Origin: a virus | Virus record (IMG/VR): IMGVR_UViG_3300024352_000571 | Location: 1-25,158 of that record | DNA: 25,158 nucleotides | Reading direction: 5' to 3' (one strand) | In this document: positions 2 to 20,955 of the stretch, in pieces | Position numbering within the stretch: the stretch's first letter is position 1 | How the letters are laid out: the number at the start of each line of letters is the position of its first letter | Notes under the pieces: model-generated | Databases searched by the model: none | What the model was told of the DNA's origin: nothing | What the model saw: the letters and a program-made list of their open reading frames with translations, nothing else | Program-made: the position numbers and the translations under genes

Positions 2-1330
2 ACATATAACTTTACTCAGCCAACATGTAACGGAGAAGATACTTATGTAGGTAATTACACAAAGACAAGACAGGAATGTCCAGTCGGTAGTGGTAATTGG
101 GTTGATTGTACATCTGCAGTATTCGTATCATTTGGAGAGTGTATTGCAACAAATGTAAGCGGTTGTGGTGGTTCTGGAGGAAATGGCGTATCTCCTTGTA
201 CTCCTGTTCCTACTCCAACCCCTACACCTACACCAACTCCTACACCTACTCCAACACCTACACAAACAACATACTATTTCTGTTGCAATGATGGAACATA
301 TGAATCAGTACTTGCAAATGACGCAAGTCAGGGTGTCCAACTTGCAAATAATATATGCGGTCAATATGGTTCATCATTAACTGGTGGAGTGTTTACAACA
401 CCACAAAATTGTGGACCTACGCCAACACCTACACCAACTCCTACACCTACCCCAACTCCTACCCCTACTCCGACACCAACATCATCAACATGGTATTTCT
501 GCTGTAACGATGGAACATATGAATCAGTGCTTGCTTCTAACTCAAGTACAGCAGTTCAACTTGCAAACAATATTTGTGGACAGTATGGCTCATCACTAAC
601 TGGTGGAGTATTCTCAACACCACAAAACTGTGGACCTACTCCAACACCTACCCCAACACCAACTCCTCCATTCTTCCCACCATTCTTCCCAACATTTAAT
701 CCTTGCTCTGATCCATCAATATTAAATCAGTCACAATGCTCTGCTTGCGGATACTACTGGTCAAATAACTTTGGAGAATGTTCTGCAACACCATGGCCTA
801 CACCTACACCTACACCTACTCCAACCCCAACTCCAACTCCAACACCTACGCCAACACCTACGCCAACACCTACGCCAACACCTACACCTGCACAAACAAC
901 GTATTACTTCTGCTGTAGTGATGGAGGTGGAGACTCTGTTCTTGCATCAAATTCTTCAACTGCTGTTCAACTTGCAAATAATATTTGTGGACAGTCTGGT
1001 TCAAGTTTAAGTGGAGGCGTGTTTACAACTCCTCAAAGTTGCATAGCATCTCCATTCTTCCCGCCATTCTTCCCACCATTCTTCCCGTTCTTCCCACCGT
1101 TCTTCCCGTTCTTCCCACCATTCTTCCCAACTTTTAATCCAGTTCCTACACCAACACCAACGCCTACACCTACCCCTACACCTCCATTCTTCCCACCATT
1201 CTTCCCGTTCTTCCCACCGTTCTTCCCACCATTCTTCCCAACATTCGGCACATGTCCTGATATACCAGATTGTAGCAACGACCCTTGCCAACAATGTCTC
1301 TATATCAATAATGGTTGCAGAGGATGCTAA
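2..1330 (+). CDS. Proline/cysteine-rich virion appendage protein (5' partial)
   Basis: The reading frame is open from base 2 to the TAA at 1328-1330, so the true start lies outside the window; 442 residues are visible. The part before 209 is Cys-rich. Then come five (Pro-Thr)n spacers, three copies of a roughly 50-residue module that begins near YYFCC and ends near PQNCG, and three runs of Pro-Phe-Phe-Pro. The C-terminus is a Cys cluster ending GCRGC. No membrane segment or known catalytic motif is visible. Pro-Thr spacers between small Cys-rich modules suggest a stiff, extracellular, possibly disulphide-stabilised fibre. The same PFFP element ends the fibronectin protein at 10206-11204, which lies among fibre genes, so a virion role is likely. 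It sits directly upstream of a small operon holding an oxygenase and a glycosyltransferase, and may be their substrate (inference). Confidence 0.75.
   Translation, partial: TYNFTQPTCNGEDTYVGNYTKTRQECPVGSGNWVDCTSAVFVSFGECIATNVSGCGGSGGNGVSPCTPVPTPTPTPTPTPTPTPTPTQTTYYFCCNDGTYESVLANDASQGVQLANNICGQYGSSLTGGVFTTPQNCGPTPTPTPTPTPTPTPTPTPTPTSSTWYFCCNDGTYESVLASNSSTAVQLANNICGQYGSSLTGGVFSTPQNCGPTPTPTPTPTPPFFPPFFPTFNPCSDPSILNQSQCSACGYYWSNNFGECSATPWPTPTPTPTPTPTPTPTPTPTPTPTPTPTPTPAQTTYYFCCSDGGGDSVLASNSSTAVQLANNICGQSGSSLSGGVFTTPQSCIASPFFPPFFPPFFPFFPPFFPFFPPFFPTFNPVPTPTPTPTPTPTPPFFPPFFPFFPPFFPPFFPTFGTCPDIPDCSNDPCQQCLYINNGCRGC
266..415 (+). repeat. Cys-module copy 1 (YYFCC...PQNCG)
   Basis: First of three in-frame copies of a roughly 50-residue module in the protein ending at 1330. 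It has a vicinal CC pair, then NDGTYESVLA, QLANNICGQYGSSL and a closing Cys. Copies 2 and 3 follow at about 491-634 and 896-1045. The spacing of the four cysteines is kept in all three, which suggests two intramodule disulphides. Confidence 0.85.
491..634 (+). repeat. Cys-module copy 2
   Basis: Second copy of the YFCC...NCG module, flanked on both sides by Pro-Thr spacers. It is nearly identical to copy 1 except for SNSSTA in place of NDASQG. Synonymous differences from copy 1 show it is not a very recent duplicate. Confidence 0.85.
896..1045 (+). repeat. Cys-module copy 3
   Basis: Third copy. It shares SNSSTAVQLANNICGQ with copy 2 but has GGGDSV in place of GTYESV and ends SCIAS. It leads straight into a Pro-Phe-Phe-Pro run rather than a Pro-Thr spacer. 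Confidence 0.85.
1052..1240 (+). repeat. Pro-Phe-Phe-Pro runs in the first fibre protein
   Basis: Two in-frame runs of FFP/FFPP units at 1052-1129 and 1184-1240 are separated by a Pro-Thr spacer. A shorter run lies at 668-691. The units are near-identical in DNA (TTCTTCCCA/CCG) to the long array at 10815-11159, in the same orientation. Confidence 0.9.
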
Positions 1331-1960: not shown

Positions 1961-2509
1961 ATGAAAGAATCTTTTATAATTAATAATATTTTACCAAAAG
2001 AAGAATTAACCAAAATACAAAAATATGCAATGAATATGTGGATAAATTATCCAAACTATGATGAAGCATTTGGAAGACATCAATGGGCAAATACTCCAGA
2101 ACTTAAAGAGTTACATGAAAAATTATTAGATTTAGCAAGAGAATATTTTGAAGAAGAAGACATACTCCCATCTTGGTGCCTAATGTCAATTTACGAGGGT
2201 AAAGAGGCAAAACTCTGGAAACATAGAGATGATAATGCCTGTACATATCACATAAACTTTTCAGTATTTCAAAAAACACCATGGGAGTTATGGGTAGAGG
2301 GTAAGCCATATTTGCTTGAAGAAAATGATGCATTATTTACATACGGAAATGATTTAGAACATTGGCGAGAAGAGTTTCCAGATCCTGATAAAAATATGGT
2401 TTGTAATATATTTTTATTTTATTGCAAACCAGATCATTGGTATTTTACACAAGGTCCCGACTATCTATATACTCATATTAGGGCTGATAAAAATAAGGGT
2501 ATGATGTAA
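1961..2509 (+). CDS. Divergent 2OG-Fe(II) oxygenase
   Basis: 182 residues. The double-stranded beta-helix signature is visible: H88-R-D90 (in KLWKHRDD) as the metal-binding HxD, a strand after it (TYHINFSVF), and a distal H134 in LEHWRE followed by a hydrophobic strand (NMVCNIFLFY). The usual Arg/Lys that binds 2-oxoglutarate about ten residues after the distal His is not in its normal context; K144 is a candidate. This copy lacks the NDDYEGG turn shared by the seven oxygenases at 11773-18834, so it is a separate lineage. Its place between the proline-rich fibre gene and the glycosyltransferase (two bases downstream) suggests it hydroxylates a residue of a virion protein; that substrate is inferred. 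Confidence 0.7.
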   Translation: MKESFIINNILPKEELTKIQKYAMNMWINYPNYDEAFGRHQWANTPELKELHEKLLDLAREYFEEEDILPSWCLMSIYEGKEAKLWKHRDDNACTYHINFSVFQKTPWELWVEGKPYLLEENDALFTYGNDLEHWREEFPDPDKNMVCNIFLFYCKPDHWYFTQGPDYLYTHIRADKNKGMM

Positions 2510-10205: not shown

Positions 10206-11204
10206 ATGGCATCAAGTAAAAGAAAAGGTATTAAGTCCTCAGCGCAGGATAACTTTTTACAACCAGATCCAGTCACAAGTTTAAGTGCTTCAAATGTAGG
10301 CACAGGACGTGACTATGGTAATGGTGCTGTTGACCTTTCTTGGTCTTTGCCTGCTACTTCTCCAGCAGCAACATCTTATACAATTACAACAACTCCAGCA
10401 ACAACAACAGTGGTCACTGGTAATGCAAATACAACATACCAATTTACTGGCTTATCTGGAGGAACATCTTATACATTTACAGTTGTAGGTACAAATGCAG
10501 CAGGTACTGCAAATCCAACAACAAGTTCTTCTGTTGCTGTTACTACAAAGCCAGGAACACCAAGTGGTGCCAGTGCATCTGCTTTATCAGCAAACACAAA
10601 CAGAATTGAATGGTCTGCCCCAGCAAATGGTGGTAGCACAATTACATCATATACAATTACTGGTTCTGATGGATCAAGTTATACTGGTGTTACATCTTCA
10701 CCATATGATGCTAACGATCCAGGTACAAATCCAGGATCACAAACTTATACAATTGTTGCTATTAATGCTAATGGTACATCTGCAGGTGTAACTACATCAT
10801 CTGTTACAACTACCCCGCCATTCTTCCCATTCTTCCCTCCATTTTTCCCACCATTCTTCCCATTCTTCCCTCCATTTTTCCCACCGTTCTTCCCATTCTT
10901 CCCTCCATTCTTCCCACCATTCTTCCCGTTCTTCCCATTCTTCCCACCGTTCTTCCCATTCTTCCCATTCTTCCCATTCTTCCCACCATTCTTCCCGTTC
11001 TTCCCACCGTTCTTCCCACCTTACTTCCCATTCTTCCCGTTCTTCCCACCGTTCTTCCCTTACTTCCCATTCTTCCCGTTCTTCCCACCTTACTTCCCGT
11101 ACTTCCCATTCTTCCCACCGTTCTTCCCACCGTACTTCCCATTCTTCCCACCATACTTTAGAGGTTGCGGATCCAACTGCGTATGCTTAGGAATTTGTAT
11201 CTAA
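10206..11204 (+). CDS. Fibronectin-III protein with long PFFP array
   Basis: 332 residues behind AAAGGAGA. Two fibronectin type III domains are visible (about 20-110 and 113-203): DLSWSLPATSPAATSYTI ... GLSGGTSYTFTVVGTNAAG, then RIEWSAPANGGSTITSYTI ... SQTYTIVAINANG. Such domains are common on phage tails and bind surface sugars weakly. The C-terminal third is a 115-residue array of FFP and FFPP units, with some Tyr replacing Phe near the end. A short Cys-rich cap (RGCGSNCVCLGICI) follows. The same array and a Cys cap end the protein at 2-1330. It is the last fibre gene before the hydroxylase operon and is a natural candidate substrate (inference). Confidence 0.8.
   Translation: MASSKRKGIKSSAQDNFLQPDPVTSLSASNVGTGRDYGNGAVDLSWSLPATSPAATSYTITTTPATTTVVTGNANTTYQFTGLSGGTSYTFTVVGTNAAGTANPTTSSSVAVTTKPGTPSGASASALSANTNRIEWSAPANGGSTITSYTITGSDGSSYTGVTSSPYDANDPGTNPGSQTYTIVAINANGTSAGVTTSSVTTTPPFFPFFPPFFPPFFPFFPPFFPPFFPFFPPFFPPFFPFFPFFPPFFPFFPFFPFFPPFFPFFPPFFPPYFPFFPFFPPFFPYFPFFPFFPPYFPYFPFFPPFFPPYFPFFPPYFRGCGSNCVCLGICI
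10815..11159 (+). repeat. Long Phe-Phe-Pro / Phe-Phe-Pro-Pro array
   Basis: 115 residues built only from P, F and Y: units of FFP and FFPP in irregular alternation, with Y for F (TTC to TAC) only in about the last third. Codons are almost all TTC plus CCA/CCG/CCT, making the coding strand nearly pure pyrimidine. Unit number is likely to vary by slippage or unequal exchange. Confidence 0.9.
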
Positions 11205-11293: not shown

Positions 11294-11746
11294 ATGCATT
11301 TTGTACTAGCAGAAAATAACGACTCATCTTGGCAGGTAGTATTTGAATTTACCTTCTCTACAGATGAGAGAAAAAATATTTTAGATGCAGCACTTGCATC
11401 AAATCTCCCAATTACTATGATGGAAACAACATCTTTTAAAAATCAAGCAAAATCAGGGGCAACTTGGAACGGAACATCATTCTCTGGAGGACATGTTGCT
11501 GATGGAATGGAATATTTAGACTTGCCATCAGATGACGAATTCTGGTCTACAAGAAGAACATATTCTTTTATTTGTGATAATGTTATTATTGCAATGATTG
11601 TTGCAAATGAAGGCACTGCAATTGGCCAGTATTTAAATGAGCATCTTGCTAAAGATAATATTAAAATGATTAAGGTTCCAGAAGGTAAAAAGATTATGGT
11701 TGGAGAATCTGTTCAGTTTGACAGTTCTTCAAACACACTGCTTTAA
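11294..11746 (+). CDS. Hypothetical protein, first gene of the hydroxylase operon
   Basis: 150 residues behind AAAGGAG. I do not recognise a family. It opens with a beta strand (FVLAENNDSSWQVVFEFTF). The middle holds GATWNGTSFSGG, and a helix-strand part (TYSFICDNVIIAMIVANEGTAIGQYLNEHL) and a terminal SVQFDSSSNTLL follow. There is no signal peptide or HxD motif. It follows the main promoter of the operon, so it should be made at the highest level of the group, as expected for a structural or chaperone protein rather than an enzyme (inference). Confidence 0.6.
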   Translation: MHFVLAENNDSSWQVVFEFTFSTDERKNILDAALASNLPITMMETTSFKNQAKSGATWNGTSFSGGHVADGMEYLDLPSDDEFWSTRRTYSFICDNVIIAMIVANEGTAIGQYLNEHLAKDNIKMIKVPEGKKIMVGESVQFDSSSNTLL

Positions 11747-11772: not shown

Positions 11773-12486
11773 ATGTACGAATATGATGAAAACCAGAATC
11801 CATGGTTTACAAAAGATCGCTCAGAAACGGCATCAAATAGATATCCAACAAAAACATTGCCAAACGGCGTCATTGTAGAAAACCCTGGGCTTGGTTTAAA
11901 CATTTATAGAAATGTCTTTTCTAAAGAAGATGCTGATAGATATATCAATACACTAGAGTCAAACCTAGATGGCAGCAAAGGCTACCGTTGGTCAGAAGCC
12001 CAAGTAACAAATTCTAATACGCCAATTAAAAGAGCAAGAGATTGTGTAGACTTTAAATTTAAGCCAGAAAATCTTGGCGCTAGGAATGATCAAAATGCCG
12101 AACTACTAGACCTACATAAAGAAATATATGATAAGTTAAAATTATGCATAGATGAATATGCAGCATATTGGGGAATTAATGTTATCTATTATGAAGCATT
12201 TAACTTTGTAAAATACGAAGGTGAAGGAAAGCATTTTAATATTCACGCAGACCATGGTCCAGCCTATAATGCAACCGTCTCTGCGGTTATTTATATTAAC
12301 GATGACTATGAGGGCGGGGAAATACAATTCCCAAGACTAGACGGATATACACTTACTCCAAAAGTTGGAGATATTGCTGTGTTCCCATCTAACTACATTT
12401 ATGAGCATGCATCTCTTCCAATGAAGAGCGGTACAAAGTATTGTGTCGTAATTATGACTGACATTAATGAGTTAGGCCATAAGTAG
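11773..12486 (+). CDS. Prolyl-4-hydroxylase-type 2OG-Fe(II) oxygenase 1
   Basis: 237 residues. The catalytic half shows H158-A-D160 (HFNIHADHG), the turn YINDDYEGGEIQF, PKVGDIAVFPS, distal H212 (YEHAS) and K222 (SGTKY) as the 2-oxoglutarate-binding residue. This is the complete prolyl 4-hydroxylase (P4Hc) layout. The N-terminal 100 residues give the supporting helices, with NIYRNVFSKEDADRYI at the start of the fold. No signal peptide, so it acts inside the cell. Its sequence is closest in this window to the copy at 13277 (shared YWGI/YNIM.. EAFNF(V/I)KY region). The stop overlaps the next GTG start. Confidence 0.88.
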   Translation: MYEYDENQNPWFTKDRSETASNRYPTKTLPNGVIVENPGLGLNIYRNVFSKEDADRYINTLESNLDGSKGYRWSEAQVTNSNTPIKRARDCVDFKFKPENLGARNDQNAELLDLHKEIYDKLKLCIDEYAAYWGINVIYYEAFNFVKYEGEGKHFNIHADHGPAYNATVSAVIYINDDYEGGEIQFPRLDGYTLTPKVGDIAVFPSNYIYEHASLPMKSGTKYCVVIMTDINELGHK

Positions 12487-13265
12487 TGAGTATAGATTAT
12501 AAAAAAATACTTTTTAAATCATACAGACCCTGGCTAACTAAAGAAAGCAAGTCTGTTCCAACACCAACACAAAAAGAAATACCACAGTGGTATAAGGATG
12601 CAGATAGGTTTGCAAAAAATCCATTTAATGGAGAATATTACAAAGCACCAAAAGAGGTTTGTCCATTTCCTAAAGCAGGAACCACAGATGACTACGGCAT
12701 GATTCCAACATGGAAAGCCTGTCCAGCAATTTTAGATGCTTTTATGACTGGATATGTTCTTAAAACACCGTGTGATCTGATTTTTTCAAAAAATGTTACA
12801 GGTTCCCTGGACGTTAAAGTTGATAATCCAATGTATCAAGATTTTTGTTCAGTAAGGCCACCTATGCCTCAGTTTGAACATCCTGCAGGATACTACAAGA
12901 GTCATTTTGCTTGGATGCCAGACTGGGGACTAAAACTGCCAGATGGATATAGTGCTTTATTTATGACACCAATGAACAGATTTGATTTACCATTTATGAA
13001 TACAACGGGTATTGTTGATTCTGATAAGGTTGAATTATTAGGCAGTTTTCCATTTTTTATTATAGATGGTTGGGAAGGTACTATTCCAGCAGGTACACCA
13101 TTTTTACAGGTTTTGCCATTTAAGAGAGAAAATTGGGAACACGAAATTGAGATATTAGATTCATCAAGCATATATGCTAAAATAGTAGATAACGCAAATA
13201 TTTATCGCCAGCCAGATGGCGGGGTATACAAAGATAAAGTTTGGACAAGAAGAGAGTATAAGTAG
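12486..13265 (+). CDS. Uncharacterised phage protein, possibly DUF6065-related
   Basis: 259 residues from a GTG that overlaps the preceding TAG stop. No catalytic motif is recognised. The N-terminus (PTPTQKEIPQWYKDADRF) and WKACPAILDAFMTGY recur in uncharacterised phage proteins, from memory. The C-terminal half (GYSALFMTPMNRFDLPF ... TIPAGTPFLQVLPFKRENW ... IEIL) has the same order of motifs as the protein at 13960 (SILTINPVNYFNEDF ... VIKAGTPIATIIP ... IEIV). Both therefore probably share one beta-rich fold. Placed between two hydroxylase genes in one operon; function unknown. Confidence 0.65.
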   Translation: MSIDYKKILFKSYRPWLTKESKSVPTPTQKEIPQWYKDADRFAKNPFNGEYYKAPKEVCPFPKAGTTDDYGMIPTWKACPAILDAFMTGYVLKTPCDLIFSKNVTGSLDVKVDNPMYQDFCSVRPPMPQFEHPAGYYKSHFAWMPDWGLKLPDGYSALFMTPMNRFDLPFMNTTGIVDSDKVELLGSFPFFIIDGWEGTIPAGTPFLQVLPFKRENWEHEIEILDSSSIYAKIVDNANIYRQPDGGVYKDKVWTRREYK

Positions 13266-13276
13266 AAGGAGATATC

Positions 13277-13960
13277 ATGTCAACTTGGACAGATAAAGAG
13301 ACATTAGGGTTTGGCATCACTTGCTATAGAGGTGTTATTAAGCCAGAACTAAATATTATAGAAAGACTAGAAAATACCCTAGGCTCACCAGCACCTTGGG
13401 GAGAATTATCTGAAGAAGGAAAGCAGTACCATTGGCTACCAGCATATGTTGGATATCAGCAGTTAATGCCAGACTATCGTGATTGCTATGACTTTAAGTT
13501 TAAAAAAACAGATATTGAAAATGATAAAAGTGAAGACTCTCTTCTACTTCAGCAAATTTGGCAAGACGTATATGATGCACAGGCACCAGTAGTTGATGAT
13601 TATAGAAAAGACTATAACATCATGCCATTAAAGTATTGGGAAGCATTTAATTTTATTAAGTACGGACCAGGGCAGCACTTCAAAGAACACCATGATCATG
13701 GTTTTTCATACAACTGTACTGTATCATTAGTAGCATACATCAATGATGATTATGATGGCGGAGAGTTATACTTTAGATTACAGAATTTAAATATAAAGCC
13801 AAAGGCAGGAGACCTGTATGTCTTCCCTTCAAACTTTATGTATCCGCATCAGGCAATGCCAGTACACTCTGGTACTAAATATTCTATTGTCACAATGCTA
13901 GACTATAGCAGAAAGTATCATACTCCAGATATGTATGATCCAAAGTGGGCAAATGAATAA
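13277..13960 (+). CDS. Prolyl-4-hydroxylase-type 2OG-Fe(II) oxygenase 2
   Basis: 227 residues behind AGAAGGAG (13264-13271). Key residues: H138-H-D140 in HFKEHHDHG, YINDDYDGGELYF, PKAGDLYVFPS, distal H191 (YPHQA) and K201 (SGTKY). The core aligns well with oxygenase 1, including DFKFK before the core and EAFNFIKYG. These two look like an old duplication separated by the insertion of another gene. The stop overlaps the next ATG (TAATG). Confidence 0.88.
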   Translation: MSTWTDKETLGFGITCYRGVIKPELNIIERLENTLGSPAPWGELSEEGKQYHWLPAYVGYQQLMPDYRDCYDFKFKKTDIENDKSEDSLLLQQIWQDVYDAQAPVVDDYRKDYNIMPLKYWEAFNFIKYGPGQHFKEHHDHGFSYNCTVSLVAYINDDYDGGELYFRLQNLNIKPKAGDLYVFPSNFMYPHQAMPVHSGTKYSIVTMLDYSRKYHTPDMYDPKWANE

Positions 13961-14667
13961 TGCTAAATATTTCAGTTGAAAAATTATACGGCTGTAACTT
14001 TGATATTCAGCCAATGTCAATTAAAAGAGATTGGATGGATGTAACATCTGAAAAGCATGCATATAGATGTTTTCCTGTTACACAAGCAAACGTTGTTGGC
14101 TGGAATCTTTCTTGTAAAGAAGATATAGTATTTTTTTGGGATGGCATTAATGATCAAACAGATCAACACGTAAAAATTACTAGTCCTGAAGGCTCATATG
14201 CAGGTAGAGGTCAGTCATCAATAAGTCTTAATACATCATTGATTTTTAGGACTGACCCAGATGTAAGTATTTTAACGATTAATCCCGTTAATTACTTTAA
14301 CGAAGATTTTGAAACAATGTCTAATCTAATAAGTACTTCTTTTTATGATAATCCATTGCCATTAGCACTTAAGGCAAAAAAGGCAAATCAAGAAGTTGTT
14401 ATAAAGGCTGGAACACCAATTGCAACGATTATTCCAATTTCTTTAACCAATTTAAATAATACAACTATTGAGATTGTAGCGTATCAAGATCCAGATCGTA
14501 AAAGACAACAAGCAAACATAAATTATGGAACAGCAGCACAAGTCGTTAACTCATCTGGAGAATGGACAGACTGGTATCGTGAGGCAGTAGACGAAAATGG
14601 AACATCCCTTGGATCACATGAAGTTAAGACATTAAAACTAGATGTAGTAGATAGGTCAGGGTTTTGA
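13960..14667 (+). CDS. DUF6065-like protein of unknown function
   Basis: 235 residues. The N-terminal half (RDWMDVTSEKHAYRCFPVTQANVVGWNL) resembles DUF6065, a family of unknown function, from memory. The C-terminal half shares its motif order (around AGTP at 150-153) with the protein at 12486. It is mostly beta, with no Cys pair or enzyme motif that I can assign. Its TGA overlaps the next ATG (TGATG at 14665-14669). It may bind the substrate of the neighbouring oxygenases; that is only a guess. Confidence 0.65.
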   Translation: MLNISVEKLYGCNFDIQPMSIKRDWMDVTSEKHAYRCFPVTQANVVGWNLSCKEDIVFFWDGINDQTDQHVKITSPEGSYAGRGQSSISLNTSLIFRTDPDVSILTINPVNYFNEDFETMSNLISTSFYDNPLPLALKAKKANQEVVIKAGTPIATIIPISLTNLNNTTIEIVAYQDPDRKRQQANINYGTAAQVVNSSGEWTDWYREAVDENGTSLGSHEVKTLKLDVVDRSGF

Positions 14668-15134
14668 TGAGTGATCAATTAAAACCAAGCCACACAGATA
14701 TTGTAAATCAATATATTGCTGACGCAAAAGCACAAAAGATTAATCACTATATTATAACTGTCTCTAGAGATGGAGAATCACCAGTCAGATCCATTATTTC
14801 CTATGACAATGTTGTAGATGCTGTTGCGGGATATCAAATGTATCAGGATGCTGGATTTGCAAGAAATTTTTTAACAGTTTCTTTATATGAACCATCTGGG
14901 AAAATTAATACCAAAGTTTTAAAAAGAAATCAGGCAGGGGATCCATCTTTTGTTAGACAAAACTACATTGATACAACTGATGCCCTATATGCTATCAAAG
15001 ATAAACTTAATAAAGAAGACTATGAAAAACTATGCCTCAAAATCGCACAGTCATTTGGTAGAGATAACTGGCGTTTTGATGTCGAAAGATTTCTTACAAA
15101 ACTAGAAGTGGAGGCAAAAATCCAGGAGCATTAA
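14667..15134 (+). CDS. Hypothetical protein
   Basis: 155 residues from the ATG at 14667, preferred over a TTG one codon earlier because it overlaps the preceding stop. The product is mixed alpha/beta: a helix (DIVNQYIADAKAQKI), strands (HYIITVSRDGES, SIISYDN), then helices (TTDALYAIKDKLNKEDYEKLCLKIAQSF and the C-terminal FDVERFLTKLEVEAK). No motif or family is recognised and no Cys pair or signal peptide is present. It ends just before an extended -10 box that starts a new transcript inside the operon. Confidence 0.6.
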   Translation: MSDQLKPSHTDIVNQYIADAKAQKINHYIITVSRDGESPVRSIISYDNVVDAVAGYQMYQDAGFARNFLTVSLYEPSGKINTKVLKRNQAGDPSFVRQNYIDTTDALYAIKDKLNKEDYEKLCLKIAQSFGRDNWRFDVERFLTKLEVEAKIQEH

Positions 15135-15138
15135 CCTG

Positions 15139-15147
15139 TGATATAAT
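15139..15147 (+). promoter_or_regulatory. Internal extended -10 promoter, leaderless type
   Basis: TGATATAAT ends six bases before the ATG at 15154. No ribosome site and no clear -35. It would give the last five oxygenases their own transcript. Confidence 0.6.
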
Positions 15148-15153
15148 CTTATT

Positions 15154-15909
15154 ATGAAGCCAGAAGATGCAGTTTTAGCAATACGACACCCATCCATTAC
15201 ACCGTCAGGATTTTTCGGCAGTGGACCAGATAACATTATTGAATTACAAAACTTTATGACAGATGAAGAAGTTGATTTTTTAGATAATGCAGCAAGAAAT
15301 TTAACAATCTGGGATATTACAGAAAGCCATAAAAATGAAAATGGTACCATCACCTATGATGCTGATTACTGGAAAGATAGAGTCTGCAGTGCTCCATCTT
15401 TAAATCAAAATGATCCAAAGATTGTTCCAGTTATTGTGGGTTTGTTTAATAGACTGCAACCAATTATTGAAGATTTCTTTAAGGTAAAGGTTCAGCCAAC
15501 TGGACAAACAATAGTAAAGTGGAATCCAGGACAGTTCCAATTACCTCATGCAGATAAAGAACTGCACTCTGGACCAGATGCAGGAACGCCAAATGACTTT
15601 CCTAATTATGATATAGCAAGTTTATTTTATATTAATGATGACTACGAGGGCGGAGAGTTATATTTTCCAAACCAGGGTATACAGTTTAAACCTAAAAGAG
15701 GTTCCGCATACTTCTTCCCTGGAGATATGAATTACGTGCATGGAGTTACAGAAATACGAGAAGGATTTAGATATACCTGTCCATTTTTCTGGGAGATTTT
15801 AGAGCATACTGGAGAAGAGAAGCCAGATTTTAATAAAAAATATGATAGAATTTTCCCAAATGATGAGGCAATCAGACAGTGGGATCCAAAAAATGGGATT
15901 AGGAAGTGA
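15154..15909 (+). CDS. Prolyl-4-hydroxylase-type 2OG-Fe(II) oxygenase 3
   Basis: 251 residues. H132-A-D134 (LPHADKE), YINDDYEGGELYFP, PKRGSAYFFPG, distal H196 (YVHGV) and R206 (FRYTCPFFW). The Arg is the usual 2-oxoglutarate ligand, where oxygenases 1 and 2 have Lys. The N-terminus (IIELQNFMTDEEVDFLDNAAR) is the standard first helix of this fold. A C-terminal extension of 40 charged residues follows the core. The leaderless promoter just upstream and the end overlapping a possible GTG of the next gene suggest co-expression of the five oxygenases from here. Confidence 0.88.
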   Translation: MKPEDAVLAIRHPSITPSGFFGSGPDNIIELQNFMTDEEVDFLDNAARNLTIWDITESHKNENGTITYDADYWKDRVCSAPSLNQNDPKIVPVIVGLFNRLQPIIEDFFKVKVQPTGQTIVKWNPGQFQLPHADKELHSGPDAGTPNDFPNYDIASLFYINDDYEGGELYFPNQGIQFKPKRGSAYFFPGDMNYVHGVTEIREGFRYTCPFFWEILEHTGEEKPDFNKKYDRIFPNDEAIRQWDPKNGIRK

Positions 15910-15911
15910 CT

Positions 15912-16790
15912 ATGGAAGTATTAGAGATATATCCAAAGATTGTAGTTTATAGAAATGTTTTTGAAGATGCCAAAAAGGTAGAGCAAATTCTTAAAGACTC
16001 AACAAGTAATGACCCAGATAGACTTCTAAGCGAATGGACAAGATGGTCTATATTTGGCGATTACTTGAATCCAACAATTCCAGGTAATTTTCCTAGAGGA
16101 TTTAATCAGCAAGCAATTGACGAATTGGAGGCAAATACTCCAGCACAAGAAGATCATAAATACTTCTTGCAGGAATTATGGAATGGTTACAATAAAGTTG
16201 GTAGAGACTATTTAGATAAATTTGGTGCAGAGTTTGGTTTTGATGAAGAAGAGATGACTGAAGACCAGGATGGCAATAGATTGCCTAGATGGCAAATGTA
16301 TGGTCCATCTATCTGTAAGTATGATTCCTCTTGGGAACACCCAATGGCGATGACATATCATTCTGATTATATTAGAGAGCCAATAACAAGTCCAGGATAT
16401 AAATTTGCAGTAACAGTTAATGCATATTTTAATGATGACTACGAAGGTGGTCAAATTGATTTCTATGCAGGCAATGAACTGTATAGTTATAAGCCAAAGG
16501 CTGGCGATTGGTTAGTATTCCCATCTGGACATCCAGAGGTATTAACTAAGGACGAGAAGGTATACTTACATGGAGTTGTTGCTCCAACTCAAGGTCATAA
16601 ATATTTCTCTAGAATGTATTGGAGAAAGTATGCTAACGGTGCGCCAGAGTGGTTTGAAAAAGAAAAAGAATATGGCAAAGAAGTATGGGCTTCAATGCAG
16701 GATGAAATTATGGAAAAGTTCCGTAATTCTGTTCCAAATAGATTCGAAATCCCAGAAGGAGTGAGAATAAATAATGAATTTAACCAATAA
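15912..16790 (+). CDS. Prolyl-4-hydroxylase-type 2OG-Fe(II) oxygenase 4
   Basis: 292 residues from the ATG at 15912, six bases after AGGAAG; a GTG at 15906 overlapping the previous stop is an alternative. H150-S-D152 (MTYHSDY), YFNDDYEGGQIDF, PKAGDWLVFPSG, distal H220 (YLHGV) and K230 (GHKYFSR). It is the longest of the set, with an acidic insertion before the core (FGFDEEEMTEDQDGN) and a long C-terminal tail. It overlaps the next gene by 17 bases in another frame. Confidence 0.87.
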   Translation: MEVLEIYPKIVVYRNVFEDAKKVEQILKDSTSNDPDRLLSEWTRWSIFGDYLNPTIPGNFPRGFNQQAIDELEANTPAQEDHKYFLQELWNGYNKVGRDYLDKFGAEFGFDEEEMTEDQDGNRLPRWQMYGPSICKYDSSWEHPMAMTYHSDYIREPITSPGYKFAVTVNAYFNDDYEGGQIDFYAGNELYSYKPKAGDWLVFPSGHPEVLTKDEKVYLHGVVAPTQGHKYFSRMYWRKYANGAPEWFEKEKEYGKEVWASMQDEIMEKFRNSVPNRFEIPEGVRINNEFNQ

Positions 16791-17517
16791 GAAAAGAGTA
16801 AATAAGGACTTAGTTCTTTATGAAAACTTTATCGATGCTGATACTGCTGCAAAATTAATTAAGATTTTGGATAAGCATGCAGAGAGTGGAAAACTATCAT
16901 GGACACCAATCTCATTCTATGAATCATATTCATCAGTGTTGCCTCAAGATAATGACGAGGACATTATTGCAGAAGGTTTAGCACCAACAATATTTTCTGA
17001 TATGAAACAAGGAATCATTAATGCTGTTGCAAGTGTTCATGACCTTGATCCAAAGATTATTTGTCAAATTGGATATCATACTCAAAAATGGGAACCAGGA
17101 GCATATGCTCGTATTCATTCTGATAACACAGATGAAAAAGGAAACTCAGGTGCTTTTACAAGAAGTAGATATGCTGCGTTCTTATATCTAAACGATGACT
17201 TTGAAGGTGGTCTACTAAACTTCCCATCAAACGATGTTTCTATTAAGCCACAAGTTGGTATGCTTGCCGCATTTGATGGCGGGTTTAATAATATGCATGA
17301 AGTCACTATGATTACTAAAGGCGTTAGGTACACCCTAGGTTCATTCTGGGATGATCGTGAAGAAGATGCCTATCCACAAGAGTTAAGAGACGCTTGGGCT
17401 AAAGAGATGGAAGAAACAAGAGCCTATCAAGCAAAAGAAAAAGCAGAATGGCAAGAACTATTAAAGGAAGGGTATAAGTTAGACCCAGACGGAAATAAGT
17501 ACAAGGTTGAGGAATAA
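16774..17517 (+). CDS. Prolyl-4-hydroxylase-type 2OG-Fe(II) oxygenase 5
   Basis: 247 residues. H115-S-D117 (ARIHSDN), YLNDDFEGGLLNFP, PQVGMLAAFDGG, distal H175 (NMHEV) and R185 (VRYTLGSFWDD). The core is complete. The C-terminal 55 residues are highly charged and helical (EEDAYPQELRDAWAKEMEE...), probably a coiled-coil tail that could dimerise or bind a partner. The start lies inside the end of oxygenase 4, and the stop overlaps the next ATG. Confidence 0.87.
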   Translation: MNLTNKKRVNKDLVLYENFIDADTAAKLIKILDKHAESGKLSWTPISFYESYSSVLPQDNDEDIIAEGLAPTIFSDMKQGIINAVASVHDLDPKIICQIGYHTQKWEPGAYARIHSDNTDEKGNSGAFTRSRYAAFLYLNDDFEGGLLNFPSNDVSIKPQVGMLAAFDGGFNNMHEVTMITKGVRYTLGSFWDDREEDAYPQELRDAWAKEMEETRAYQAKEKAEWQELLKEGYKLDPDGNKYKVEE

Positions 17518-18185
17518 TGTCAATGCTATTTATGGAAAAAGAGTTTCAGGAAGCAGGCTACGAAACAAGTAGGTGGCGTGATGATATGGAAGTTCTTGTT
17601 GTCCATAATTATATGACAGAGGATGAATTTGCTCAGGTTTGGAAAGTTATTGATGAAACTCCAGAAGAAGATTGGTCAATTCATTACAGACAACATCTCA
17701 AGCAATTCTGCTTGGAAAAGTTTGGTAGAGATGACGTAGAAAATCTTGTTGCTGAAGGAAAGTACGAGATTACCCTTGGATGGGATGACAAAAATTATGA
17801 TGTTTCTGGGTCCCCATTGGCGCTTAGTCTTCAAACAAAGTTTCACAATCTTTTACAGAAAGCAGATCCTAGTTTAGAGTTAGCAGGCTTTGCAACATTA
17901 CAAAGAATGCAAGAAGGGGTTCAATTAAAGTCACATACAGATCAGCACACAGACCCATCAATTAAATATGCTGCTATACTATATCTTAACGATGACTATG
18001 CGGATGGAACCCTATTCTTTAAAAACAAAGATATAGATTTACGTCCAAAACCAAGAGACCTTCTTGTATTCCCAGGCAACGAAGAATATGAACACGGAGT
18101 AAGGTTTGTTGGAGCAGGTCCAGTAAGATACGTTTTAGTTGGGTTTGTAAAAGTAAGAGGCTTTTACGATAACAACAAATACTAA
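17517..18185 (+). CDS. Prolyl-4-hydroxylase-type 2OG-Fe(II) oxygenase 6
   Basis: 222 residues from the TAATG overlap. H140-T-D142 (KSHTDQH), YLNDDYADGTLFF, PKPRDLLVFPG, distal H193 (YEHGV) and R204 (VRYVLVGF). The turn is ADG where the others have EGG or DGG. The N-terminal region before the core (VWKVIDETPEEDWSIHYRQHLKQF) differs from all the others, pointing to a different substrate surface. Confidence 0.86.
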   Translation: MSMLFMEKEFQEAGYETSRWRDDMEVLVVHNYMTEDEFAQVWKVIDETPEEDWSIHYRQHLKQFCLEKFGRDDVENLVAEGKYEITLGWDDKNYDVSGSPLALSLQTKFHNLLQKADPSLELAGFATLQRMQEGVQLKSHTDQHTDPSIKYAAILYLNDDYADGTLFFKNKDIDLRPKPRDLLVFPGNEEYEHGVRFVGAGPVRYVLVGFVKVRGFYDNNKY

Positions 18186-18195
18186 AGGAGTGGTT

Positions 18196-18834
18196 ATGAA
18201 TAAAGAAATACTAGAAGAAAAAGTTTACTACTATACAGATGTTATAGCAGATCCTAAGAAACTTGTTGCTGCGATTGACAACTTGGACTCAAGTGTTTGG
18301 GGCGAGTGGATGGCATGCAGTGGTTTAGAATATGTTTATGGAGAAAGCAAGGATATCTTGCCTAGACATATGAGAGATTCTGATAACGAAGAGTATGACT
18401 ATATTTATAACACAATCAATGATGCTATGCATGCTGTAGCAAGAGACTATGCTGAGGCTATGGGTAATACTGATGATCCAAAACTTTTTCCAGTACACCC
18501 TATTAAAAAGTACAAGGCTGGAACCTTTATGGGAGCACACTTTGATCAGCAAGAAGGTGACGAAAGACTTAAGTATTCTTTAGTTATGTACCTTAATGAT
18601 GATTACGAAGGTGGAGAGATTTCGTTCTCAATTAGAAATCCAGAAGGAGTAATTCAAGGTGGAACTCCAGCAGAAGATTTTGAAGTTGCAAAACAAAATA
18701 AGTCTTATAGTTTTGCTGTAAAACCAAAAGCGGGTAGTGTAATTATTTTCCCACCATCACCACCATATCACCATACTGCACACTTAGTTAAGAGTGGTTT
18801 TAAGTATATGGTTCCGCAACACTGGATTCACTAA
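18196..18834 (+). CDS. Prolyl-4-hydroxylase-type 2OG-Fe(II) oxygenase 7
   Basis: 212 residues from the ATG at 18196, five bases after AAAGGAG; a GTG at 18190 lies too close to that site. H115-F-D117 (MGAHFDQQ), YLNDDYEGGEISF, then an insertion of about 25 residues (GGTPAEDFEVAKQNK) not seen in the other copies, PKAGSVIIFPPS, distal H193 and K203 (SGFKYMVPQHW). It ends the operon; the next gene has its own promoter. Confidence 0.86.
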   Translation: MNKEILEEKVYYYTDVIADPKKLVAAIDNLDSSVWGEWMACSGLEYVYGESKDILPRHMRDSDNEEYDYIYNTINDAMHAVARDYAEAMGNTDDPKLFPVHPIKKYKAGTFMGAHFDQQEGDERLKYSLVMYLNDDYEGGEISFSIRNPEGVIQGGTPAEDFEVAKQNKSYSFAVKPKAGSVIIFPPSPPYHHTAHLVKSGFKYMVPQHWIH

Positions 18835-18924: not shown

Positions 18925-20955
18925 GTGTCTGATTTTTTTAGTTTTCGTTTGTCTGAAGAGTTCATAAGTGAGTATAAAACAAAGGAACCGCCATTTGGTT
19001 TTGCAGACGCTGGTGGTAATTCTTTAGGAGAGATTACATTTATTCGCACCTACTCCCGTATGAAGGAAGATGGAACTAAAGAAAGATGGCATGAGGTTTG
19101 TCGTAGAGTAATCGAGGGTATGTACTCAGCCCAGAAGAATCACGCAAAAGAAAACAGACTACCTTGGAATGACTATAAGGCACAGTCATCTGCAAAAGAA
19201 GCCTTTGATAGATTGTTTAATTTAAAGTGGACACCACCAGGACGAGGCCTATGGTCTTTTGGCACGGCACTTACAATGGAAAAGAAGAATTCAGCAGCAC
19301 TACAAAACTGCGCTATGGTATCTACTAAAGACATTGATCGCAATGACCCAGGTGCTCTATTTGCTTGGACTATGGATGCCCTAATGATGGGTGTAGGTGT
19401 AGGGTTTGATACTGTCGGAGCAGACAAGAATTTGCCTATTTATAGCCCAACAGAGCCACCACAGGTATACGAAATCCCAGATACACGGGAGGGATGGGTA
19501 GAATCCGTTAGACTTCTTATAAACTCATATTTAAAGCCTAATATGTATATTCAGGAGTTTAACTATGACCTTATTAGACCTCTAGGAGCACCTATCAAGG
19601 GCTTTGGAGGCACTGCAAGCGGTCCTGCACCACTTATCCAACTACACAAGCAGATCACGTCTGTAATCGGCGGTAGAGCAGGAGAAACCCTAGATTCAAG
19701 AGCAATAGTAGACATCGTTAATCTCATTGGTACCTGTGTGGTATCAGGAAATGTCAGACGATCTGCGACATTGGCTTTGGGTGGAGCAGAAGATCAAGAC
19801 TTTATGAATTTGAAGAATGCTGAGGTTTTTCCAGATCGTAACTCATTTGATCCAGAAAAGCCAGGTTGGGCTTGGATGTCTAACAACTCTATTTCTGCGA
19901 CGGTAGGTACAAAGTACGAAGATTACGTAGACCTAATCGTTGATAACGGAGAGCCAGGATTCATTTGGCTTGACGTTGCTAGAAACTATGGCAGACTTAA
20001 GGATGCACCAGATGGTAAAGACTACCGTGTAATGGGATTTAATCCTTGTGCAGAGCAGCCATTGGAATCATACGAATTGTGCACCTTAGTCGAGGTACAT
20101 TTAAATCGTCATGAATCCAAGGAGGACTTTCTACGCACCCTTAAGTTTGCCTACCTCTATGGCAAGACTGTAACGCTAATCCCTACACACTGGCAACAGA
20201 CAAATGGTATTATGCAACGTAATCGTCGTATTGGAACATCACTTACAGGTATAGCATCATTCTCAGACAAATTTGGTTTGCCTGTTGTGCGTGAATGGAT
20301 GGACGAAGGATATAACACTATCCGTAAGTATGATCATCAATATTCAGAGTGGTTATGTGTTCGTGATTCCATTAGAGTCACAACTGTTAAACCATCAGGG
20401 TCTGTATCAATTCTTTCTGGCGCAACTCCAGGAGTACACTGGGCTCCAGGCGGAAACTATTTCTTGAGAGCAATTCGTTTTGGGAATACTGACCCAATGA
20501 TTCACTTGTTCAAGGCTGCTGGATATAAGATGGAAGCAGACCTTGTATCTGCGAATACAACTGTCGTATATTTCCCAGTACATTCTGGACATGCAAGATC
20601 TGAAAAAGAAGTTACATTATTTGAGAAGATTGCGCTTGCTGCTACTGCTCAGAAATACTGGTCTGATAACGGCGTGTCTGTAACGCTTTCATTTGACAAA
20701 GAAACTGAATCAAAGCATATTGCGCCAGCACTTCATATGTACGAAGGACAGTTAAAGGCAGTTTCATTCTTGCCGATGGGAAATAAGGTATATCCACAGC
20801 AACCGTATACTGAAATTACAGAAGAAGAATATAACTCATATATTGGCCAAATCAAAAAGATCGACTGGTCTGCCATCTACGACGGAGCAGAAAATCTTGA
20901 GGCACAAGGCGAAATGTACTGTACTACAGATGCTTGTGAAATAAAAATATCTTAG
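18925..20955 (+). CDS. nrdJ: Class II (adenosylcobalamin-dependent) ribonucleotide reductase
   Basis: 676 residues from a GTG seven bases after AAAGGAG. It reduces ribonucleotides to deoxyribonucleotides for phage DNA synthesis, using a B12-made thiyl radical and no oxygen. The catalytic residues follow the monomeric Lactobacillus-type enzyme: C129 (LQNCAMVS) and C386 as the redox pair, C375 in NPCAEQPL as the radical cysteine with E377 two residues on, and the C-terminal shuttle pair C666/C671 (YCTTDAC). The spacings C375-E377-C386 and C666-C671 equal C408-E410-C419 and C731-C736 of that enzyme. It is shorter than the Lactobacillus protein (about 739), mainly between C129 and C375. By eye its codons are somewhat richer in G+C than the fibres. 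It depends on host cobalamin. Confidence 0.93.
   Translation: MSDFFSFRLSEEFISEYKTKEPPFGFADAGGNSLGEITFIRTYSRMKEDGTKERWHEVCRRVIEGMYSAQKNHAKENRLPWNDYKAQSSAKEAFDRLFNLKWTPPGRGLWSFGTALTMEKKNSAALQNCAMVSTKDIDRNDPGALFAWTMDALMMGVGVGFDTVGADKNLPIYSPTEPPQVYEIPDTREGWVESVRLLINSYLKPNMYIQEFNYDLIRPLGAPIKGFGGTASGPAPLIQLHKQITSVIGGRAGETLDSRAIVDIVNLIGTCVVSGNVRRSATLALGGAEDQDFMNLKNAEVFPDRNSFDPEKPGWAWMSNNSISATVGTKYEDYVDLIVDNGEPGFIWLDVARNYGRLKDAPDGKDYRVMGFNPCAEQPLESYELCTLVEVHLNRHESKEDFLRTLKFAYLYGKTVTLIPTHWQQTNGIMQRNRRIGTSLTGIASFSDKFGLPVVREWMDEGYNTIRKYDHQYSEWLCVRDSIRVTTVKPSGSVSILSGATPGVHWAPGGNYFLRAIRFGNTDPMIHLFKAAGYKMEADLVSANTTVVYFPVHSGHARSEKEVTLFEKIALAATAQKYWSDNGVSVTLSFDKETESKHIAPALHMYEGQLKAVSFLPMGNKVYPQQPYTEITEEEYNSYIGQIKKIDWSAIYDGAENLEAQGEMYCTTDACEIKIS

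Follow-up and report, generated by a model that had tools for sequence, protein, structure and literature searches.

Phages with several genes for Fe(II)- and 2-oxoglutarate (2OG)-dependent oxygenases have been described since 2010, when cyanophages were reported to carry up to five of them, usually one to five (PMC3037559), and the cyanophage S-SCSM1 was found in 2022 to hold 24 such genes (PMC9602691). Roles in host metabolism were proposed in both studies, and the later one states that the oxygenase functions were not specifically investigated. PHD-like folds occur in many marine phages according to a structure survey (PMC12774648), and the use of viral prolyl 4-hydroxylases (P4Hs) was called 'cryptic' in a Baltic Sea study (PMC9301287). 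For the many prolyl-hydroxylase-like genes of phages, host metabolism is the usual guess in papers. Here we analyze seven such genes, the P4H operon, at positions 11773–18834 of the IMG/VR virus record IMGVR_UViG_3300024352_000571, a phage fragment of 25,158 bases; this whole record is called the window. What we provisionally regard as new is that this operon is linked in both directions to a tail gene with FFP repeats; phages with many 2OG oxygenases were already known. A literature search of incomplete coverage found no paper in which phage P4Hs are tied to any particular repeat protein, and no direct report of proline hydroxylation of tail fibers by phages.

A close parallel is found in the T4-like cyanophages, which likewise harbor many diverged genes of the family PF13640 (2OG-FeII_Oxy_3) in one phage, and in S-SCSM1 their run flanks tail fiber genes. 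The window copies differ from these in that they are lineage-wide orthologues in a constant order behind an FFP-repeat tail gene, whereas no FFP-type repeat was seen in the cluster stretch of S-SCSM1 (L511); those window copies that were tested share at best about 24–40% identity with the cyanophage ones. The enzyme vCPH of the chlorovirus PBCV-1 (PDB 5c5t/5c5u), the top Foldseek match of copy 3 of the window, is a viral prolyl 4-hydroxylase with characterized peptide substrates (Eriksson 1999, cited in PMC9301287). It belongs, however, to the virus of a eukaryotic alga and is about 16% identical over the aligned part, and in the window an FFP repeat is the candidate substrate. In mimivirus, a structural protein of the virus is hydroxylated and glycosylated by the virus itself (cited in PMC8968730); the window differs in the domain of its host, in the repeats of the substrate and in the set of enzymes. 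The hydroxyproline-rich cell-wall proteins of plants and algae offer a further likeness, in which P4Hs act on repetitive proline-rich rods that are later glycosylated, and an algal P4H (with (Ser-Pro)5, PDB 3gze) is among the best folds for copy 3; this comparison is an analogy only.

The seven open reading frames (ORFs) of the cluster all lie on the + strand, interleaved with three unrelated genes that the original prediction does not mention, and all exceed the curated Pfam cut-off of 27 bits for PF13640 with scores of 28.4–58 bits. They comprise copy 1 (11773–12486, 237 aa, 44.2 bits, with HAD, H212 and K222 at its active site), copy 2 (13277–13960, 227 aa, 58 bits), copy 3 (15154–15909, 251 aa, 35.5 bits), copy 4 (15906–16790, 294 aa, 28.4 bits), copy 5 (16774–17517, 247 aa, 36.4 bits), copy 6 (17517–18185, 222 aa, 40.8 bits) and copy 7 (18190–18834, 214 aa, 43.6 bits). 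The original prediction of seven oxygenase genes with shared key motifs in 7 kb was borne out by these profile matches and by reading the motifs, and the lengths it gave (212–292 aa) were right in essence, differing trivially from the 214–294 aa counted from the first start codon. H158, D160, Y174, N176, D177, D178, G182, H212, G220 and Y223 (copy 1 numbering) are invariant in all seven copies. The HxD...H triad and the basic 2OG-binding residue are kept in all of them and in nearly all of about 590 orthologues. Exactly as had been predicted, this basic residue is lysine in copies 1, 2, 4 and 7 and arginine in copies 3, 5 and 6, and it is constant within the orthologue set of each copy (orthologues of at least 40% identity). 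All genes lie on a single strand, and up to the end of copy 7 the spacing of neighbors, as read from the ORF coordinates, ranges from -17 bp (overlap) to +19 bp (gap); this arrangement suggests one transcription unit. An assembly artefact was ruled out, as the IMG/VR contigs L007 and L008 carry an identical operon (100%).

The block is preceded by a gene for an FFP/FFPP-repeat tail protein (10206–11204, + strand), which combines an fn3 domain (50 bits), about 30 FFP/YFP units and a Cys-rich C-terminal tip, and which is the proposed main substrate. A search with copy 5 yielded 80 related loci of 74–100% identity, and among the 48 relatives with at least 1.8 kb of upstream sequence, 45 have an FFP-repeat ORF upstream of copy 1. 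For the reverse comparison, loci were picked solely by a DNA pattern for FFPPFFPFFP. A P4H gene follows on the same strand within 3 kb in 47 of the 52 such loci with at least 3 kb of downstream sequence, among the matches listed, at a median distance of 151 bp. When stretches of similar size were compared, P4H genes were present in 58 of 77 for the FFP pattern (among the matches listed), in 3 of 80 for PTPTPTPTPT and in 1 of 79 for the GAGA control GAGAGAGAGA. These patterns are unlike in base composition, so the sets of loci drawn with them differ too. Eight of the 26 FFP records checked whole, again among the matches listed, are devoid of PF13640; six of these are shorter than 15 kb and the others measure 38 kb and 26 kb.

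The linkage also extends to rearranged and distant loci. On L033, L078 and L079 the P4H genes and their FFP gene are still neighbors but have moved to the opposite side of the lysis and fiber genes. The sole GAGA-control record with P4Hs, the distant 45-kb phage record G143 (L499–L501), has 12 PF13640 matches, and a gene with FFPP/YFPP/WFPP repeats, which had not been looked for, lies directly ahead of its main P4H run. By eye, the same record also shows a tryptophan-halogenase-like gene (L501:8711–10225). Across 84,980 cellular genomes the FFP pattern was found in 7 contigs only, three of them in frame, and the only true FFP array among the in-frame cases (L521) has P4Hs directly downstream. 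As regards gene number, the related contigs G067, G068 and G069 (L502–L507) exceed the window with 11–13 PF13640 matches.

Collagen-like (Gly-X-Y) tail proteins might instead be what these enzymes serve, as in PBCV-1 and mimivirus, with the FFP gene as a mere neighbor. Gly-X-Y genes lie upstream in many relatives, the best structural match of copy 3 is a collagen P4H, and hydroxylated collagen of giant viruses is known (PMC8968730). However, 'Actinomycetia phage DSL-LC01', a genome from a lake metagenome, has several collagen-like genes and neither an FFP repeat nor a P4H in the 100 kb examined of its 129 kb; the operon adjoins the FFP gene rather than a Gly-X-Y gene even after rearrangement, and selection for FFP alone recovers the operon. 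We thus consider collagen-like proteins an unlikely main substrate.

The seven copies share 17–29% identity with one another, except for copies 1 and 2 with 42%, and the longest exact DNA match between any two of them is at most 17 bases. In a tree of 90 proteins, made with a quick method and containing several long branches that leave the deep branching order unsure, the copies form seven clades, one for each; across about 60–100 related phage sequences each copy keeps to a clade of its own. Copies 1 and 2 are sisters, but the lineage had them as separate genes from its base onward. Some proteins of G143 group near copies 1/2, 3 and 4, and others are tandem expansions specific to that phage. 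The order copy 1, 259-aa gene, copy 2, DUF6065 gene, facultative 156-aa gene, copy 3, facultative copy 4, copies 5, 6 and 7 and ribonucleotide reductase (RNR) gene recurs in nearly all 80 loci. Copies 1, 2, 3 and 5 are well conserved among relatives; copies 6 and 7 are more variable, as is copy 4, the most variable of all, which is absent at times. Median ratios of nonsynonymous to synonymous substitution (dN/dS) between close relatives are 0.046–0.074 across all seven, the value for copy 4 coming from four pairs only. Judged by their separate clades, constant lysine or arginine, low dN/dS and low identity to one another, the copies are old, distinct and separately maintained under strong purifying selection, and all seven are very probably active as enzymes. 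Recent tandem duplication was ruled out by the tree, the low identities and the lack of long DNA matches; pseudogenes were ruled out by dN/dS and the conserved active-site residues. The original prediction had argued from the retained residues that all copies are active, had set dosage aside, and had named a phylogeny with recent tandem duplication, or mostly inactive copies, as refutations. Both were checked and neither refuted it, even the split of copies 1 and 2 predating the lineage, and its rejection of dosage stands.

Simple dosage, by which several copies raise the hydroxylation capacity with no division of labor, would fit a long repeat with many prolines, and genuine tandem expansions do occur in G143, as do related contigs with up to 13 PF13640 matches. 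The low identities between the copies, the separately constant lysine or arginine and the clade-wise conservation across the lineage nevertheless make it a very unlikely explanation.

At the level of structure, the best PDB match of copy 2 by phmmer is the prolyl 4-hydroxylase of Bacillus anthracis (E 8e-6). Copy 3, the sole copy modelled, was picked for AlphaFold2 because of a weak Tet_JBP match, and its model (predicted local distance difference test, pLDDT, 87.8) adopts the double-stranded beta-helix fold of peptidyl prolyl hydroxylases. The top folds are the PBCV-1 collagen prolyl hydroxylase, which is also the first Foldseek match (E 5e-11), the B. anthracis P4H, the algal P4H and PHD2, with Z scores of about 15–16 (16 for PHD2). 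A profile search of NCBIfam gave nothing over its cut-offs. PHROGs lists some of these oxygenase families as 'ferrochelatase', 'DNA endonuclease' or 'DNA endonuclease V'; for proteins of PF13640 such names seem mistaken, and they appear again in cyanophage entries of RefSeq. The bacterial P4Hs 5v7y and 4iw3 are among the fold matches of copy 3 as well, and bacterial P4Hs hydroxylate EF-Tu. Together with the published view of the cyanophage 2OG-Fe(II) oxygenases (PMC3037559, PMC9602691), this would fit auxiliary metabolic genes that act on host proteins or on the 2OG and nitrogen metabolism of the host. Consumption of 2OG, however, would not call for seven diverged and separately conserved active sites, and the cluster sits directly behind tail genes and is linked to the FFP repeat; a host target therefore appears rather improbable.

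A second proline-rich repeat in the window led to a different partner. The gene at 2–1330 (+ strand, 5' end missing) encodes a tail protein of PTPT repeats that also contains some FFP units and has a C-terminus rich in Cys, and further downstream lies a glycosyltransferase gene of the polypeptide N-acetylglucosamine (GlcNAc)-transferase family PF11397 (2512–3438, + strand, 117.4 bits against a cut-off of 21, E 1e-33), for which a PDB sequence search returned nothing significant. It adjoins an eighth oxygenase-like gene of the window (1961–2509, + strand, phrog_2954, E 4e-14), likewise absent from the original prediction, and the same pair is found in L094, L092 and L180. Among records of at least 30 kb, PF11397 occurs in 10 of 40 PTPT-selected records and in none of 33 GAGA controls (p 0.0015), whereas PF13640 is found in 3 of 40 versus 1 of 33 (p 0.62), so that PT repeats were rejected as a general partner of P4Hs. 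In the FFP/P4H lineage 7 of 47 records, mostly fragments, have PF11397; it lies near the PT-repeat gene, and in L180 and L092 along with a P4H and the phrog_2954-type gene. By this genomic distribution the P4H operon pairs with FFP and the glycosyltransferase with PT, which speaks against PT as a P4H context. Of the proline contexts that had been predicted, FFP and FFPP gained strong genomic support from linkage, whereas PT did not, there being no excess of P4Hs with PTPT. PT as a P4H substrate is hence disfavored, although the PT protein of the window also holds FFP units; this protein is the proposed substrate of the GlcNAc-transferase and a possible secondary substrate of the P4Hs.

PF11397 is the family of two protist enzymes, the GlcNAc-transferase for hydroxyproline of Skp1 and its relative, the mucin-type GlcNAc-transferase. 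The polypeptide alpha-GlcNAc-transferase family also starts mucin-type O-glycans on Ser/Thr. In the window, as in the Skp1 system of Dictyostelium, prolyl hydroxylases and this transferase family come together, here on one contig; the Skp1 and mucin-type enzymes are described in PMC8724618. The window-type transferase differs in following PTPT repeats with or without P4Hs, and its acceptor may be Thr or hydroxyproline. Because PF11397 accompanies PTPT repeats even without P4Hs, the acceptor leans to Thr.

The FFP protein (window 11160–11204) and the other proline-repeat protein (1240–1330; L103–L135) were also compared at their Cys-rich C-terminal tips, which resemble each other inside a genome and vary from one genome to the next. 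For 8 of 10 genomes the two tips of the same genome match best, the exceptions being the window and G002, and the summed score of 891 was not reached in any of 20,000 shuffles (374 ± 80). This suggests tips that are shared between the stalks and swapped, as a receptor-binding part or an assembly tag. Collagen-like Gly-X-Y tail genes were seen in L104, L106, L109, L110, L114, L117, L119, L129, L135 and L139, in many cases with the PT-repeat gene a few kb downstream.

Along the cluster, the FFP gene is followed by one small gene (11294–11746, + strand, 150 aa) that varies among relatives, the P4H block and a class II RNR gene (18925–20955, + strand), a lineage marker that ends the conserved block. 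Two further genes are constant partners in the operon. One is the 259-aa gene (12486–13265, + strand, phrog_7084), whose AlphaFold2 model (pLDDT 91.9) has dUTPases as best folds (Z 9.7 over 121 residues, Foldseek E 3e-4); its product keeps GI(V/I)DSD and lacks the motif-3 Tyr, as do close relatives, and is not assigned to the dUTPases. The other is the DUF6065 gene (PF19541, 13960–14667, + strand, 98.6 bits), which adjoins copies 2 and 3 in relatives and is kept inside the P4H run of the distant G143; a search of isolated phages for DUF6065 gave no match. A facultative gene (14664–15134, + strand, 156 aa) is present in 26 of 80 relatives. With RNR and the dUTPase-like gene as partners, the cluster could be imagined to modify nucleotides or phage DNA in a TET/JBP-like manner: the class II RNR gene comes after the operon, homologues of the 259-aa gene in the haloviruses HF1/HF2 are likewise close to RNR, and copy 3 alone is listed with Tet_JBP. 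This match, however, reaches 19.9 bits against a cut-off of 34.9, whereas PF13640 exceeds its own, the model of copy 3 resembles peptidyl prolyl hydroxylases, and no RNR adjoins the P4H operon in the relatives L033 and L078. We therefore regard a nucleotide or DNA target as highly improbable.

By its RNR, the nearest named phage is DSL-LC01 (64% identity); a megablast of the whole window against isolated phages gave no match. WhiB genes are present in 7 of 23 related records, all seven at least 64 kb long. WhiB is typical of actinobacteria and their phages. Owing to the RNR kinship and these WhiB genes, the host is likely a freshwater actinobacterium.

Taken together, we favor, as probable though far from certain, a reading of the cluster as a virion-maturation cassette, with the FFP stalk as the target of hydroxylation. 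The phage would make a stalk, for a tail or an adhesin, in which FFP/FFPP (and YFP) repeats stand between an fn3 base and a tip rich in Cys. The Fe(II)/2OG prolyl-hydroxylase-type enzymes, whose genes follow that of the stalk and are probably transcribed with it, would hydroxylate its prolines during stalk production, using O2, Fe(II) and 2OG. Nearby proline-rich or collagen-like tail proteins may be hydroxylated as well. Many diverged enzymes would be kept if one active site did not suffice for all contexts (FFP-F, FFP-P, P-P, YFP and array ends) or proteins, and hydroxyproline may lend stiffness and hydration to a stalk that would otherwise be very hydrophobic. A second and separable modification would be the transfer of GlcNAc to the PTPT stalk by the PF11397 enzyme.

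Several points weigh against hydroxylation of the FFP stalk by these enzymes. PF13640 includes enzymes with other targets, so that some copies may not act on proline; copy 5 weakly matches YhhC, the oxygenase of a cyclophane-containing peptide (E 1.4e-4, far under the cut-off), which makes a non-proline target in the aromatic repeat conceivable. The FFP loci come for the most part from a single broad lineage, with G143 and L521 as the few distant cases, and the linkage counts are hence not independent events. Linkage alone, moreover, does not separate an FFP substrate from a mere neighbor. A match of the enzyme repertoire to the repeat motifs could not be shown: presence of copy 4 goes with a higher FFPP fraction (raw Fisher p 0.007), an association with one supported independent pair that is lost after phylogenetic correction, and the type of copy 7 and the FFPP fraction are not associated (p 0.72). 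The idea of the original prediction that each enzyme has a site of its own is accordingly not supported.

More tentatively, and with doubts that outweigh our confidence, the system may be a phage counterpart of plant extensins and mucins, with two repeat stalks on the virion: the dedicated, multi-enzyme P4H operon would hydroxylate FFP rods, and the PF11397 enzyme would attach GlcNAc to PT rods. Both stalks would bear common Cys-rich tips, particular to each genome and exchanged as a unit of host range. The FFP-repeat protein and the P4H operon predict each other across phages, which points to a definite substrate that short synthetic peptides (e.g. FFPFFPFFP, FFPPFFPPFFPP) can test. The set would supply several natural P4Hs whose site preference may differ. 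If the proposal is true, proline hydroxylation, perhaps with GlcNAc, would be part of building the host-contact stalk in a widespread group of freshwater phages.

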